DNA of 64,000 bases, taken from assembly GCA_016784735.1 (NCBI GenBank), contig JADHUC010000001.1, forward strand, positions 62,001 to 126,000, written 5' to 3'. The notes under the pieces are model-generated. The model ran no database searches. It was not told the origin of the DNA and was given only the letters and a program-made list of their open reading frames with translations. The position numbers and the translations under genes were made by a program. This stretch comes from Pirellulaceae bacterium (GTDB lineage: Bacteria; Planctomycetota; Planctomycetia; Pirellulales; Pirellulaceae). This document shows, piece by piece, positions 7,252 to 16,549 of the stretch (positions within the stretch are counted from its first letter, which is position 1; each line of letters starts with the position of its first letter).

Positions 7252-7448
7252 ACGACAAACGACACGTTTGGAAGGAAAAACTGTTGGCCACATCGGAATC
7301 CGTCGTTGCGTAGCTCAATGGGAAACGGATAATGGCTGCAGCCGTTTCCTTATCACAACTGGAGGAACCCATTGAGAATCGTCTCGCCGCTTCGGACCGC
7401 GTTCTGGCGAACGCAGCTACATTGAAACGATCACGCAAGGAGGGGCCT

Positions 7449-10067
7449 ATGTCACGCAAAAGGAAACGAAAACGCAATCGTACGGCGAAACGCCATTCGG
7501 CGAACGCAGTTCAAGAGCAACCGAAGGCTGCCGCAAGTCCGCTCGAACGGCTACTGGACATCGCGGACGAGCAGCCGGATCCGCGTGACGCTTTGGAAAT
7601 GTTTCAAACGGCTTTGGACGAATGCCAACACCTCGCCGGCGTTTCCGTGTTCGAGAACGCTGATGGACTCTTGTGGGACATCCCCGATGCCAGGTGCTAT
7701 TTGCGGGCCGTCTTTGGTGTTGCCGCTTCGTTGTGGCGGCTGAACCGCGTCGAAGAAGCGGCCAGGCATTTTGAGGAGGTGTTGCAGGCGGACCGGGCCG
7801 ACCATCTATTCGCTCGCTATTGGCTGGCCGCTTGCCGGCTGGACGCCGGTCGCCTGGAGGAGTTGAAGCCGCTGCTGGACCGCTACGACGAACCCACTGC
7901 CTTCTGGCGGTATGCCCAATCGCTGTGGACTTTCGCGACCGATGGCAATTGCGACGAGTCGTGCCGGTTGCTGAACGAGGCCCACCGGTTGGACGCGCGG
8001 TTCGTGGATTACTTGCTGGGCGACGGGTTGGTGCGGGCCGACCAGCCGATCCGTTTCGAACAGGGCCGCAATGCCACACACAGCACCGCGCGGTTGTTGC
8101 TGCCCGCCTGGCGGTCCGTTCCGGGAGCTGCCTCGTGGGTGCGGCGCGCGCTCCGCGTACCGCTCGGTCAGGCCAAAGCCGTGCTGCCGTTTCCGCGCGA
8201 ACAGTTGCTGGATTTGCCGCAGCAAAACGCCTCCTGGCAAGTCGGCCTGCGGCAGTTGGACCCGGACCAGCCCGGCGACGAACCTTGTTGGGTCCTGGGC
8301 GTCGCCGACGTGAACGCTGAGCAAATGCGTTGTCTGACGGTGATCGAAGGCGACCCCACGCCCGACGCGGTGTGGCGGGAAATGCTGACCGCTTTTTTGC
8401 AGCCCATCGACAGCATGCCGCAACGCCCGCGACGGCTGGAAGTGCCGCGGCCCGAATACCGCCGGGCGTGGCGCAGGTTGCTGGACGAGCTCGATGTCGA
8501 ATGCCGCGTGACCTACAATCCGCAACCGGTCAGCCAGTTGTTGGAAGGGATGGCCGACCTGATGGCGGCCCAGCGGTTGCCTCGCTTGGCTGACGACTTC
8601 GACGCCCGCGACCTGCCGCCCGGTGACGCGACTTGGCAAATCGATTTCTTCCACCAGCCGACGATGATCTCCAACGAAGACATCGGCGTCGAGCGTCCCT
8701 GGTCGGTGTTGGTGATGGACAAGGCATCCGGCTACGTCTTGTGTACCGAAATGATTCCGGGCGAACCTACCGCCGAACGGCTGTGGGAGTACGCCGCGCG
8801 CGTGATGCTGCAAGTTCCCGGGCGGCCGCGGCGGATCGAGGTGTCGGATTCCGACGGCTACGATTTCCTCCGGCCCAGGCTGGAAGCGGCGGAAATAGAC
8901 TGCGTGTTGTTGGACGAGTTGCCGGAGTTGCACTCGTTTTGTCTGCAGATGGCCTCCAGCTTCGGCGGGCCGGAAAAGTGCGCCTTGGCCGATGGGCAAG
9001 ACGTGGACCGCGACGGCATGGAGTCGTTCTACTACGCGGCGGCCCGCTATTTCCGGCAGGCTCCCTGGAAACACGTGCCGGGCGAAATCCCCATCGAAAT
9101 CGACGTTGGCGGCTTCGGCACGCGCTACGCGATCGTGCTGGGCCGTACCGGGGTGACGTTGGGCCTGGCGGTACATGAAAGCTGGCAGGACGCGGCGGAC
9201 ATGATCAGCGGTCGGGCCAGTTGGGCGGAGCTGTCGGGTTTCGCGGTTATTTTCGAGGAAGAATCGGTGTTGGCTCCGGCGGACGTCTATCTGGTGGAAC
9301 GCCACGGTTGGCCGATCGCTTCTCCCGAAGCGTACCCTGCGGTGATGCGTTTTCGCCCCGGATATGAACCTGGTTCGCCGACGGCCGACGAGTTGGAATT
9401 CCTGGCGGCATGTCTCAATTGCCTGCCTGCCTTCGTGGCGGGCGATGCGCAAACGAAGACGTATCCACCGTCGGACGACGGAACGCAGAGGGAAACGCGG
9501 TTGAGTTGGGTGTCCGGTTCCCACCGCAATCCGGTACGCCGCGAGCAGTCGAAGTCACCGGCCACCAGAGTCTCCGGCCCGGCCGCCGTTCAGCACGTGA
9601 ACCGCAAACGCGATACATACTACCTTCATCAAGGCCGCACCAAAACCGGCAAGCCCAAGTACTTTTTCTCGAAGAAATCCGAAGGAGAACTTTGTCAGCA
9701 GTTGCCCGACGGGTTTGAAATCTACGAGAACCCGCGTGGTCAGGTTTATTGTCGCCGCATTCAACCGAAGCTGATCTCGGAACAGGAAATCGAGGTGATG
9801 CGGAAAGCGATACAGAATTGCGGCAAGCAATCTTTTGCTGGAGTGGACGTCAAAGGCAAAAACATCATCGTCTATGAAGGTGAGCATCCCTGTCTCAAAT
9901 TCAGCCTATGCAACGATGACAAGCGGTTGTTCGAGGCATCGCGATGGTGCTATCGCGGCTCGATCGACGGCTGGTTCCCCTTGTCGAGCGGCCCGAAACC
10001 GCTGTCCCAACTGGCCAAGGACTACTGCCGGCACATCGGCGAAGAATCGTTTTTTGAGTTGATGTGA
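7449..10067 (+). CDS. Large TPR/DUF6930/DUF7309-like protein of unknown function
   Basis: An 872-residue soluble protein. The ATG at 7449 follows a strong AAGGAGGGG. The order is: a very basic start (SRKRKRKRNRTAKR); TPR-like helices at about residues 30-220; two tandem copies of one domain at about 276-370 and 413-507 (both with a PTA/PTP..W motif and RPRR(I/L)EV), which I take for DUF6930; a DUF7309-like domain at about 523-660 (VPGEIPIEIDVGGFGTRYA); and a C-terminal domain at about 717-872 beginning RDTYYLHQGRTKTGKPKYFF, seen in other bacteria as a stand-alone protein. No catalytic motif is evident. The next gene starts 29 bp downstream on the same strand, so they likely form an operon. 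A stem-loop (GGAAACGG, 7321-7349) lies in the leader. Confidence 0.8.
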   Translation: MSRKRKRKRNRTAKRHSANAVQEQPKAAASPLERLLDIADEQPDPRDALEMFQTALDECQHLAGVSVFENADGLLWDIPDARCYLRAVFGVAASLWRLNRVEEAARHFEEVLQADRADHLFARYWLAACRLDAGRLEELKPLLDRYDEPTAFWRYAQSLWTFATDGNCDESCRLLNEAHRLDARFVDYLLGDGLVRADQPIRFEQGRNATHSTARLLLPAWRSVPGAASWVRRALRVPLGQAKAVLPFPREQLLDLPQQNASWQVGLRQLDPDQPGDEPCWVLGVADVNAEQMRCLTVIEGDPTPDAVWREMLTAFLQPIDSMPQRPRRLEVPRPEYRRAWRRLLDELDVECRVTYNPQPVSQLLEGMADLMAAQRLPRLADDFDARDLPPGDATWQIDFFHQPTMISNEDIGVERPWSVLVMDKASGYVLCTEMIPGEPTAERLWEYAARVMLQVPGRPRRIEVSDSDGYDFLRPRLEAAEIDCVLLDELPELHSFCLQMASSFGGPEKCALADGQDVDRDGMESFYYAAARYFRQAPWKHVPGEIPIEIDVGGFGTRYAIVLGRTGVTLGLAVHESWQDAADMISGRASWAELSGFAVIFEEESVLAPADVYLVERHGWPIASPEAYPAVMRFRPGYEPGSPTADELEFLAACLNCLPAFVAGDAQTKTYPPSDDGTQRETRLSWVSGSHRNPVRREQSKSPATRVSGPAAVQHVNRKRDTYYLHQGRTKTGKPKYFFSKKSEGELCQQLPDGFEIYENPRGQVYCRRIQPKLISEQEIEVMRKAIQNCGKQSFAGVDVKGKNIIVYEGEHPCLKFSLCNDDKRLFEASRWCYRGSIDGWFPLSSGPKPLSQLAKDYCRHIGEESFFELM

Positions 10068-11305: not shown

Positions 11306-11345
11306 GTTTGCCGTGCAGATACGCATCGTGCGGCTCTCGAGCGTC
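11306..11345 (-). repeat. 40-bp fragment of a RAYT transposase gene
   Basis: This segment matches 12331-12370 at 38 of 40 positions. In the minus frame it reads LESRTMRICTAN, part of the RAYT transposase motif ahead of its HUH site. It lies just after the TPR gene. Confidence 0.6.
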
Positions 11346-11350
11346 GTTTG

Positions 11351-11374
11351 GAATGCGGACAACACTCCGCATTC
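11351..11374. terminator. Perfect 9-bp hairpin after the TPR gene
   Basis: GAATGCGGA and TCCGCATTC enclose a CAACAC loop 58 bp beyond the TPR stop and just past the end of the VapC-like gene on the other strand. It could end transcription from both sides or be a REP unit. There is no T run. Confidence 0.45.
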
Positions 11375-12109: not shown

Positions 12110-12162
12110 TTCGGTGCGACGTGTCAAATGAAAACAAGGAACTTGGTTTCTCGGCCCTGCTC

Positions 12163-12495
12163 GAAATTCCAATGATTGGACAACAAGCAGTACGCTTGTC
12201 GCGGCCTTCGGCCGCAACGAAAACTCCCGGATTTTGAACAGAAGGAAACAGAGTACGCAGAGTTTGTACCCTTCGTTCTCTCCGTTGCCTCCTGTTCAAG
12301 AAATGCTCGCAGGGCGCGCGAAACTTGACTGTTTGCCGTGCAGATACGCATCGGGCGACTCTCGAGCGTCTTCTCGATGACCCGCTCGAAAGCTTCGAAG
12401 TCGGCATCCTTCAGGAACCGGCGCATCCTGCCCACGCTGCGGTTCAAGACGTGGAACACCATCCCACCAGGAGCGACTCGGGCAGCACGCGGCAC
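12163..12495 (-). pseudogene. Decayed RAYT (REP-associated tyrosine) transposase, N-terminal part
   Basis: The minus strand reads VPRAARVAPGGMVFHVLNR, then GRMRRFLKDADFEAFERVIE and ESRPMRICTAN (12495 to about 12331). This is the usual start of TnpA_REP transposases. About 135 bp of unrelated sequence (12196-12330) follow, then AYCLLSNHWNF (12195-12163), matching the HUH motif region CLMPNHWHF with the second His changed to Asn. The catalytic tyrosine half is missing. It is therefore an interrupted, inactive copy. Confidence 0.7.
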
Positions 12496-12709
12496 GCCGA
12501 CAGTCTCGCCAACGAGGCCCAAATCGATAACAATTAGATCTGTCTCGTTTATCTGCCTCCGATGTTCGAGAGCGCCGTACGCTGTCCGTCGGAGGACTGT
12601 CATATGCTACCAAAATACAAACGTTGTGAAGCGGGAGCCTGCATCCCAGAGATCGCATGACTATGATTGTACGTACCCAATCTGTGTGACAGTGGATCGG
12701 GAGCACAAA

Positions 12710-15700
12710 ATGGAAATGGACGCTCTGATTCGTTCGATCTCTTTGCGAGATCGGCACTACATGTTCCTGCTCGGTGCCGGGGCTTCAATCACGTCTGGAG
12801 TTCCAACGGCGACGGACTGCATCTGGAACTGGAAACGCCAGATCTTCCTGACCAGCAATGATACTGTTGCTCCAAAGGCCCTCGGCGATGTTTCGCTGCC
12901 TCACGTCCAACGTCGAATTCAGCACTGGCTGGACGATCGAGGTGCGTACCCAGAACTGTGGGACGATGCAGAGTATTCGTTCTATGTGAATGAGTGCTTC
13001 CCACGGCCTGCCGATCGTCAACAGTTCTTCAAAAAGTTGCTGCAGAACGGGCAGCCACAGCTCGGGTATCAGTGCCTGGGACTGCTGCTGCGGGCCGCGA
13101 AGATTAAGTGGCTGTGGACGACGAATTTCGACGACCTCGTTGAACGTGCAATACCGAGTGACCACGAACATCCGCTCCTTCAGGTGGGAATGGACTCCGC
13201 TCGGCGCATCGATGACATCCGGCGTGAGGAACCTGACCCGGTTCAAGTCTTCCTTCACGGCGATTATCGATACGACCCACTGCGAAACACGGAACGTGAA
13301 CTGTCGGCAGATTCGCTCGATGCGGCCTGTCGGCGACGTCTTGTCGATCTGTGTAACGATTTGCCACTGGTCGTACTTGGCTACAGCGGTCGAGATGATT
13401 CGATAATGTCGGCCCTAGCTCAGGCGTACTCACAATCAGGACGGGGCGGGATTTACTGGGGCTGTCTTTCTGGCATAGACCCACCTGGTAGGGCTGCGGA
13501 GCTACTCGACACAGCCCGAGAAAACGGTGTCGATGCGGAAGTCTTCTTTATCAGTGGATTCGATGATTTCATGAGTCGTCTCGCACGATGGTGGCTTCGC
13601 TCTACCGAATACCGGGGGTCTCTTGAGAGTCTTCTCGCTTCCAAACCCCTTCCGGCTCAGTTCTCACTTTCCCATCTCTCGCCTGACTTTGACTGGGCAC
13701 TCAGTAACGCATTTTCGATTCAGCTTCCGACAGAGTTGTTCCAGTTTAAGATGACGCTTTCCGGTCCGGATGGAAACTGGAAGCAACTCAAGTCATTGAT
13801 TGCCGAGCGCGATATCGAGGCCGGATTCGTGAAAACTCACGTGCTGGCCATTGGGCGATCATCTGAGATTCAGCAGGTATTCGGCGACCGGCTGGAGACC
13901 GAGGTCGAGCAAGTTTCGCTTTCAGGCGACGAATTCTCGATCTCCAACGGCATCGTCAGGCAGGTGCTACAGTCGGCATTCGTCGCATCGCTGGCCGAAA
14001 GAGGTTTCATTCGGGACGGTCGCTACCGTCTCCGGTTGCCTGACGTGCAGACACATTCATTTCGCAACGTGGCGTATCGATACAGCGAAAGCGTTGAACT
14101 CGGTTTCGACTGCATCGACGAGAATGTGTACGTCACGCTTCTTCCGGACGTCAGAATTCACATCGGTGAAGATGCTTGCGTCGACAGTGAAACAATCAAA
14201 GCCGTCAAACGCGACATACTGTGGCGTCAACGAAATGCGGAGTTCTGGGATACGATCAAGGCATGGACGAGGAGATTGTTTGGCAACGAGGGATGGCGAG
14301 TCGTCTATCCGCCGGGGGCTGAAACTGGGTTTGAGTTCACCGTCGCCAAACATGGGCCACTGTTCTCCCGATATCTTTCCTCAAAGCCAAAAGTCACTCC
14401 TCCTGCTGTCGCGCAAAAGGCCGCTCCGTTTGAGCAGTTTTCAGCCTTCGAAACCAATGAGCCATACCTGTTGTTCGGAAACAGCGGGAAGTCAAAGCAC
14501 CCAATCACGGGCCTCGTCAACTCGGGAGGTCCATACGAATCGTTTAACGAATTGCTTCACTCGCATCGTGACATCCGGCTTGGCGTCGTTTGCCAGGAAG
14601 GCCGCGAGAATCTGCTCGCTCAGTTTCTGCGACGTTTTGGTCAGCCGGTGTCAGTTGAGCGTGGCGACGACGATGATTATGTCGTGGATTTTCCCGGGTT
14701 CGAGTCTGCATTTGGATGCAGGCTGGCGATCCCATCGCCGGGCGATCCCGCCTGGATCAATTGTCAGATTCCATGCGACGGAACAGCGGTTGATGTGAAT
14801 CGACGAATCACAGGCGAGTTGACAACCGCAATCAGACAGATTTCCGCAGCCGACCAGGTCGATGTCGTACTGGTTTTCATACCGAGCACATGGAAGCCGT
14901 TTGAAAACATCGCGGAAGGTGCCCTCTCGCTGAATCTTCACGATCAGGTCAAGGCATTCTGCGTCCAGCACCAAATCCGAAGCCAACTGCTTCGTGAAGA
15001 AAAAGTGAGCAACGAACGATCCGCTCGAATCTACTGGTGGCTCTCACTCGCTTTCTTCACGAAGTCTCTCCGCGTTCCCTGGAGTCTGGCCAACTCGCCC
15101 GAGAACGTGGCTTACGCGGGAATCGGGTACAGCTTCGATCCATTGCAGGAGTCCCGAAAGATCGTGACGGGCTGTTGCCACGTCTATGACTCGGCGGGAC
15201 TCGGGCTGCGTTTTCGTCTCGGCGAACTTGAGGACCCGATCTGGCGACGCGACGAATTCTCGCGTCGCAAGAATCCGTATATGTCGCGCGACGATGCATA
15301 CCGTCTGGGGATTCGAACTCGACAACTGTTCTTCGAGTCGCACTCAGACAAACCCGACCGCGTGCTCGTGTGCAAGCAGACACATTTCCTCGACGACGAA
15401 ACCGAAGGCCTGCTCTCTGCCCTGCAGGGCATCGACCATGTCGATCTTCTGACCATTCAGTTCGACGGTGCATGGCGGTTCTGTGCATTCGACCCGCGAA
15501 AATCGCAGGCGCACGGATACCCAATTCGACGCGGCTCAGGAGTCCTTCTGGATTCCAATTCATTCCTGCTCTGGCTTCACGGCAATGTTCTGGGCACCAA
15601 CGTGAAGAACGACCGTTGGGGCTACTTCCAAGGGAAATCACGGATTCCCTGTCCGGTTCGTGTCACCCGGTACTCCGGCGATACGTCGATCGAAACTCTG

Positions 15701-15859
15701 AGCCGTGATCTTGTCGGCCTGACGAAGATGGACTGGAACACATTCGCCCTGTACCGAAAACTGCCGGTCATCATCACGACGCCACAAAAGATCGCCAAAA
15801 TCTCGCGACTCCTTGGCCGCCTGCCCGTTGACACCTATGACTACCGACTGTTCATGTGA
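12710..15859 (+). CDS. Single-chain SIR2-APAZ-short prokaryotic Argonaute (SPARSA-type defence protein)
   Basis: A 1049-residue protein. The ATG at 12710 follows GGGAG by 6 bp and puts the SIR2 glycine motif 20 residues from the start. SIR2 NADase domain (about 10-300): FLLGAGASITSGVPTA, WLWTTNFDDL (Asn139), VFLHGDYRYD (His183), LGYSGRDDSI (Asp229/230); the catalytic residues are kept. An APAZ-like region covers about 310-575. A MID-PIWI region (about 580-1049) opens with EPYLLFGNSGK..GPYE, then VVLVFIPSTWKPFE and a PIWI core (WWLSLAFFTKSLRVPW, AYAGIGYSFD). The slicer acids are absent (Gly805 region; CKQTHF where an Asp is expected), as in other short Argonautes. Known split relatives use guide RNA to sense invading DNA and then deplete NAD+, killing the cell. 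Here both partners are one polypeptide. A toxin-antitoxin pair lies upstream. Confidence 0.9.
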   Translation: MEMDALIRSISLRDRHYMFLLGAGASITSGVPTATDCIWNWKRQIFLTSNDTVAPKALGDVSLPHVQRRIQHWLDDRGAYPELWDDAEYSFYVNECFPRPADRQQFFKKLLQNGQPQLGYQCLGLLLRAAKIKWLWTTNFDDLVERAIPSDHEHPLLQVGMDSARRIDDIRREEPDPVQVFLHGDYRYDPLRNTERELSADSLDAACRRRLVDLCNDLPLVVLGYSGRDDSIMSALAQAYSQSGRGGIYWGCLSGIDPPGRAAELLDTARENGVDAEVFFISGFDDFMSRLARWWLRSTEYRGSLESLLASKPLPAQFSLSHLSPDFDWALSNAFSIQLPTELFQFKMTLSGPDGNWKQLKSLIAERDIEAGFVKTHVLAIGRSSEIQQVFGDRLETEVEQVSLSGDEFSISNGIVRQVLQSAFVASLAERGFIRDGRYRLRLPDVQTHSFRNVAYRYSESVELGFDCIDENVYVTLLPDVRIHIGEDACVDSETIKAVKRDILWRQRNAEFWDTIKAWTRRLFGNEGWRVVYPPGAETGFEFTVAKHGPLFSRYLSSKPKVTPPAVAQKAAPFEQFSAFETNEPYLLFGNSGKSKHPITGLVNSGGPYESFNELLHSHRDIRLGVVCQEGRENLLAQFLRRFGQPVSVERGDDDDYVVDFPGFESAFGCRLAIPSPGDPAWINCQIPCDGTAVDVNRRITGELTTAIRQISAADQVDVVLVFIPSTWKPFENIAEGALSLNLHDQVKAFCVQHQIRSQLLREEKVSNERSARIYWWLSLAFFTKSLRVPWSLANSPENVAYAGIGYSFDPLQESRKIVTGCCHVYDSAGLGLRFRLGELEDPIWRRDEFSRRKNPYMSRDDAYRLGIRTRQLFFESHSDKPDRVLVCKQTHFLDDETEGLLSALQGIDHVDLLTIQFDGAWRFCAFDPRKSQAHGYPIRRGSGVLLDSNSFLLWLHGNVLGTNVKNDRWGYFQGKSRIPCPVRVTRYSGDTSIETLSRDLVGLTKMDWNTFALYRKLPVIITTPQKIAKISRLLGRLPVDTYDYRLFM

Positions 15860-15889: not shown

Positions 15890-16108
15890 CTAATTTAGCG
15901 CAACGTGTTCCGGCTTCAAGGCCCGATCTTCCTTGGCTGGCCGCGAGAGTGTAACGTGGATTCGAGCCCTAATTGCTTGGCCATTTTCTTCACCCAGTCC
16001 TCGTTTCCGTACTGTGGGCAGGTCGGGAGACCAGCCCACAACAGGGCGGAGCGTTTCCAGTTCGGCCTCCGTCAGCGGTTGATTCACCAGATCTGCCCCG
16101 GTATTCAC
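15890..16108 (-). CDS. Small ORF coupled to the nucleotidyltransferase remnant
   Basis: A GTG at 16108 overlaps the stop of the preceding ORF (GTGA) and opens 72 codons beginning VNTGADLVNQPLTEAELETLR. The middle (PVVGWSPDLPTV) is encoded by a REP hairpin at 16014-16039, so the original protein was probably altered by the insertion. The tail ends KPEHVALN. I do not recognise the family; coupling and position suggest the third gene of a small decayed operon. Confidence 0.35.
   Translation of the reverse strand: MNTGADLVNQPLTEAELETLRPVVGWSPDLPTVRKRGLGEENGQAIRARIHVTLSRPAKEDRALKPEHVALN
16014..16039. repeat. REP hairpin, GTGGG..GGTC family
   Basis: Arms GTGGGCAGGTC and GACCAGCCCAC (one mismatch) enclose GGGA and are followed by AACAGGG. 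This matches the third hairpin of the array at 42382-42407 and its AACAGGG flank. Here it lies inside a small ORF. Confidence 0.7.
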
Positions 16109-16296
16109 TTTTCGCGCTCTGCCGCTTGCCGCCTGACCAATTGCAACTCCTCGACCACGCCGAGTTCCGAGGCCCACTTGTGGAACACATCCACATCGTT
16201 CGTAAATCGTGGTTCACCGTAAGCCATGCTCGCCATCGACCCGACAATTCGATAGGGCACGGACTCGCGCTCCAAAAAATCAGCGACCTTCTGCAT
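16105..16296 (-). pseudogene. Internally deleted nucleotidyltransferase (MNT-like)
   Basis: The frame MQKVADFLERESVPYRIVGS is followed by MASMAYGEPRFTNDVDV, a typical nucleotidyltransferase core with the G-S motif and the D-V-D metal pair. It then jumps straight to FHKWASELGVVEELQ, which looks like the end of such a protein. The 63 codons are far shorter than the 150-200 of intact members, so most of the middle has been lost in frame. The gene overlaps the next ORF (GTGA) and follows another small ORF by about 20 bp. Confidence 0.55.
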
Positions 16297-16315
16297 CAAC
16301 TCATGCGGCTTCAGT

Positions 16316-16549
16316 TCAGCCTTCGATATCGTTCACTACTCCAGGGTCCACCACCCCGTGGCGTATGCGGCGAGCAATCTCCTGATTCACCGTCTCTTCG
16401 CTCCAGTCCGTTGGCGGTTCAATTATATCGCTCTTGTCGAAGACGGACCCACTGACCAAGAGCCGCAGTACGAGATTTTGGTGTCCCTTCGACCGATCCC
16501 TAAGGCGCTCAGGTGGCGCACACCCGAACAACGAAACGCCGGTTGCCAA
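16316..16549 (-). CDS. Small hypothetical ORF ahead of the nucleotidyltransferase remnant
   Basis: The last part (about 40 codons, IEPPTDWSEETVNQEIARRI..GVVDPGVVND) has the composition of a real helical protein. The first part does not, and the start is unclear. It ends about 20 bp before the nucleotidyltransferase remnant in the same direction, suggesting one former operon. No family recognised; it may be a C-terminal fragment. Confidence 0.35.
   Translation of the reverse strand: MATGVSLFGCAPPERLRDRSKGHQNLVLRLLVSGSVFDKSDIIEPPTDWSEETVNQEIARRIRHGVVDPGVVNDIEG

Follow-up and report, generated by a model that had tools for sequence, protein, structure and literature searches.

The window analysed here, a 64,000-nt stretch of DNA from a Pirellulaceae bacterium, carries a complete gene for a 1049-residue protein in which SIR2, APAZ and MID-PIWI parts are joined in one polypeptide. 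We consider it highly probable (about 0.9), with function assigned by homology, that the product belongs to clade S1A of the short Argonautes and is a single-chain protein of the SPARSA type, which would deplete NAD+ through a guide-directed SIR2 domain. The domain content, the intact SIR2 dyad and 5′-phosphate pocket residues, the lost slicer residues and the membership of the fused clade are established. The gene lies on contig C83 of its genome and shows the following features:

12698..12702 (+): putative ribosome-binding sequence GGGAG, 5′ of the ATG (read by eye from the sequence)
12710..15859 (+): SIR2-APAZ-MID-PIWI short Argonaute gene, complete, 1049 aa, clade S1A type (translation, PADLOC, AlphaFold2 model, fold matches)
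12710..13600 (+): SIR2 NADase domain, residues ~1–297 (Pfam, PDB sequence search, 101-sequence alignment, fold comparison)
13124–13126 (+): SIR2 catalytic N139 (alignment)
13256–13258 (+): SIR2 catalytic H183 (alignment)
13661..14380 (+): APAZ (N-L1-L2-like) region, residues ~318–557 (fold match, PADLOC Aga models)
14381..14425 (+): joint of the two modules, residues ~558–572 (alignment, fold comparison, tree set)
14426..15856 (+): MID-PIWI module, residues ~573–1049 (alignment, TtAgo comparison, fold comparison)

Reading frame, modules and active sites

Translation of positions 12710–15859 (+) from ATG to stop gave 1049 codons with no internal stop. The stop-to-stop frame extends 5′ of this ATG, to a GTG at position 12338. 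The ATG at 12710 is preferred as the start because homology begins there (the PADLOC alignment begins with residue 1) and because the GGGAG lies just 5′ of it. The full-length PADLOC models PDLC02384 (957 bits over residues 1–1049) and PDLC02420 (636 bits) both cover the whole protein, and scores of this size place the family match far beyond chance. A Pfam search of the 1049-aa protein found SIR2_2 as its sole family (3e-11). The best PDB matches by sequence were both chains of the Geobacter SPARSA complex, the Ago chain aligning to residues 576–1049 (E 1e-52) and the SIR2-APAZ chain to residues 14–441 (E 1e-34).

An AlphaFold2 model built from an alignment of 44 sequences had a mean pLDDT of 86.1 and a pTM of 0.79. 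Comparison with solved SIR2-APAZ/pAgo complexes, which the first-pass annotation had proposed, showed its two halves to match both SPARSA chains: residues 573–1049 the Ago chain 8y7z_B (Z 41.1, rmsd 2.0 over 446 residues), and residues 1–557 the SIR2-APAZ chain 8jl0_A (Z 28.1, rmsd 4.0 over 519 residues). The VIA-align list was made up mostly of matches to the MID-PIWI half; the SIR2-APAZ match appeared in two of its rows (8jl0_A and 8y80_E) and in the Foldseek list. Argonautes containing N, L1 and L2 match the predicted fold from residue ~317 on.

The GAGAS motif of the SIR2 domain corresponds to residues 22–26. In an alignment of 101 sequences (92 fused, including the window protein, and nine split), G22, G24, S26, N139, D141 and H183 showed no variation. 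N139 and H183, the catalytic Asn-His dyad of SPARSA, are equivalent to N142 and H186 of GsSPARSA, both required for its NADase activity (PMC10781750). Deacetylases share the SIR2 fold and were weak matches in the PDB sequence search, which might suggest that the domain works chiefly in deacylation or signalling, not as an effector that depletes NAD+. However, the closest solved homologue, GsSir2-APAZ, is a NADase that requires the equivalent Asn and His (PMC10781750), and the NAD+ hydrolase ThsA was among the other profile matches, leaving that role with next to no probability.

The MID 5′-phosphate motif (H744, K748, Q759 and K785) was invariant in the 101 aligned sequences and forms a pocket of the HK type expected of clade S1A, a motif class described earlier (PMC6299218). 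A slicer-active planctomycete Argonaute was sought by a Pfam Piwi search, which returned only two long Argonautes. Both lacked the first Asp, and the tetrad comparison was therefore made with the Thermus Argonaute TtAgo, encoded on plasmid pTT27. Its tetrad D478/E512/D546/D660 falls on G806/P856/Q890/Q1026, the E512 column being loosely aligned. Since the D478, D546 and D660 columns are all replaced, a canonical slicer is excluded despite the less certain E512 column, and the PIWI half is predicted from these residues to be unable to cut. The window protein has Cys888 where its relatives usually have His, and its loop 843–855 is a few residues longer than theirs.

The initial description of the protein thus stood in its main points: a single uninterrupted 1049-residue frame, an intact SIR2 site (GAGAS, Asn139, His183), an APAZ-like linker (8jl0_A fold match over residues 1–557, PADLOC Aga models) and missing slicer acids, all four TtAgo positions being replaced. 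The two findings that it had named as speaking against it did not appear: the region it gave as 580–1049 does match MID-PIWI (residues 573–1049), and the full DEDX tetrad is absent on alignment.

Fused and split relatives

Search of a genome collection with an alignment of fused proteins identified 424 relatives, while a search of genome contigs with the window protein alone as the query found none. The best 80 of the 424 relatives, which are the loci most similar to a fused query, all cover that query end to end, each as one uninterrupted frame; the split sample comprised nine. Fused relatives span Myxococcota, Nitrospirota, Planctomycetota, Pseudomonadota, Acidobacteriota and Gemmatimonadota, and are also found in Bacteroidota, Bacillota, Chloroflexota, Verrucomicrobiota and others. 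Complete fused SIR2-APAZ-Ago genes were present on seven viral contigs (IMG/VR; L132–L137 and L140), where they are probably cargo of prophages or mobile elements. Split copies occurred in the same phylum as the window (genomes G139, G189 and G464) and on plasmids of rhizobia and other alphaproteobacteria. Indirect support for a planctomycete host came from genome G515, of the same class as the window's genome, one of whose proteins is identical to that of a Planctomycetales MAG.

A few loci stood apart. The fused copy on a contig labelled Methanobrevibacter (L102) was nested among Bacteroidota, by horizontal transfer or a binning error. At L023/L145 (G382:C1:4910000-4922000) the frame begins at query residue 180, without the SIR2 half bearing the Asn, and an ATPase-like frame overlaps the start of this truncated relative, which may be a chimera or a pseudogene. 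At L149 (168–3450, minus strand), from the same phylum as the window, an inactive 672-aa long Argonaute adjoins a 420-aa SIR2-like protein.

The phylogeny of fused versus split forms suggested by the first-pass annotation placed them on the two sides of one branch of a full-length tree (92 fused, nine split). The window protein grouped with the other fused proteins, as expected of clade S1A, and one change parts the two forms. In a tree whose outgroup comprised other short and long Argonautes, split SPARSA and fused proteins were sister groups, with moderate support (87) for the fused group, and the other short Argonautes sampled fell outside the SPARSA group. The window protein lies on a long branch (end branch 0.93) near the Myxococcota protein L052, its nearest sampled relative (41% identity), and Nitrospira proteins, its exact sister being unsure. 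It is quite improbable that the window protein and its neighbours in the tree (from Myxococcota, Nitrospira, Planctomycetaceae and Gallionellaceae) make up a deep sub-branch of the fused clade that differs from tested SPARSA systems in guide or target choice or in activation threshold. A single-chain Sir2-Ago from Paraburkholderia graminis was reportedly tested by Zaremba in 2022; we know of no tested member of the window protein's own sub-branch.

The covalent link and the separate clades of fused and split proteins could be taken to mean that the link fixes SIR2 and MID-PIWI in a silent state, with an activation unlike that of split SPARSA (for example, without a tetramer). However, the joint is only ~15 residues long, lies at the position of the gene boundary in split systems and is nearly constant in length (in almost all of the 92 fused proteins, fixed landmarks on either side are 28–33 residues apart). 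It matches the neighbouring chain ends of split short-Argonaute complexes, in which the two ends lie near each other (PMC10954474). In addition, an engineered single-chain AfAgo, examined in a discussion of single-chain APAZ-Agos, showed the same behaviour as its split counterpart (PMC10954474). It is therefore speculation that release is changed, and we regard such fusion-specific control as quite improbable; the earlier suggestion that fusion alters how the effector is restrained found no support here.

Genomic surroundings

The fused gene stands alone in the window. On the minus strand 5′ of it is a toxin–antitoxin pair, a PIN toxin with a Phd-type antitoxin. A 47-nt direct repeat (11306–11352 and 12331–12377; 89% identical, 1025 bp apart) flanks this pair, and its core has no other copy in the genome sequence searched. 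On the 3′ side, roughly 1 kb holds no intact gene, only a nucleotidyltransferase-like remnant, before TPR and carbohydrate-related genes follow. Further features of these flanks are:

7332–10067 (+): 911-aa protein with DUF6930 and DUF7309
12124–12603 (−): broken frame, REP-associated (IS200-type) transposase-like fragment (by eye; no Pfam match)
16105–16323 (−): 72-residue remnant, weakly nucleotidyltransferase-like (DUF2204 below the cut-off, AbiEii weaker)

PADLOC gave no defence match among nine neighbours of the fused gene, and an Rfam search around it gave no match. When a dedicated partner gene was sought across the 92 fused loci, no neighbour family recurred in most of them, as would be expected if the gene is self-contained and resides in regions of defence or mobile genes. 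The commonest neighbour family, resembling a type I restriction-modification subunit, was present at 12 of the 92, followed by recombinases and mobilisation genes (functions read from sequence). The GC content of the fused gene is 55% and that of the window 59%, weak evidence that the gene may have been gained horizontally.

The fragments on either side and the divergence of the protein, with its long end branch, might point to an inactive remnant in a decayed insertion zone. Against this, the 1049 codons contain no stop, every catalytic and pocket residue is retained and the full-length fold is confidently predicted, and we therefore judge a remnant highly improbable.

Proposed mode of action and place among known systems

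A functional single-chain SPARSA-type protein would hold a short 5′-phosphorylated guide RNA in its MID-PIWI half, and the guide would pair with ssDNA belonging to a plasmid or phage invader. The guide/target duplex in the APAZ/MID/PIWI channel would lead to assembly and rearrangement, switching on SIR2, which would hydrolyse NAD+ so that the cell stops or dies before the invader spreads. The guide and target type, duplex-triggered activation, NAD+ depletion and abortive infection are most likely those of GsSPARSA and its relatives. The domain matches, the intact SIR2 dyad and the SPARSA fold matches support the likely defence role put forward at first.

The closest solved system, GsSPARSA (Geobacter sulfurreducens SIR2-APAZ/Ago; PDB 8in8, 8jkz, 8y7z), has the same modules and fold. 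It consists of two genes and two chains, whereas the window has one single open frame instead of the separate SIR2-APAZ and pAgo genes of two-gene SPARSA (S1B), and identity in the aligned MID-PIWI part is 25–26%. SPARTA and SPARDA share the MID-PIWI fold and an APAZ-like partner with the window protein, but their effector is a TIR or a nuclease rather than SIR2. Clade S1A/APAZ group Ia (PADLOC PDLC02384) agrees with it in domain order, length, single chain, intact SIR2 site, HK-type MID motif and lost tetrad, and differs only in sequence (identity to the sampled relatives no higher than 41%, loop 843–855, Cys888).

The fused chain had first been thought unusual, a view at odds with the full-length PADLOC models, the S1A literature and the best 80 of the 424 relatives, all fused. 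Ryazansky 2018 counted 102 short pAgos whose single chain also contains SIR2 and APAZ, all on one monophyletic branch, and assigned 117 proteins, mostly fused, to APAZ group Ia (PMC6299218). The fused SIR2-APAZ-pAgo clade was named S1A (PMC11156904), and NADase effectors have been noted to be sometimes fused to pAgo (PMC10810196). With the fused form present in PADLOC, in these reports and in PMC10954474, the window gene is a new sequence of a known class, a clear but unexceptional representative of a described, bacteria-wide group. As a diverged planctomycete addition to this defence class it leaves the picture of Argonaute defence unchanged, and the protein could serve as a test case for the activation of single-chain SPARSA.
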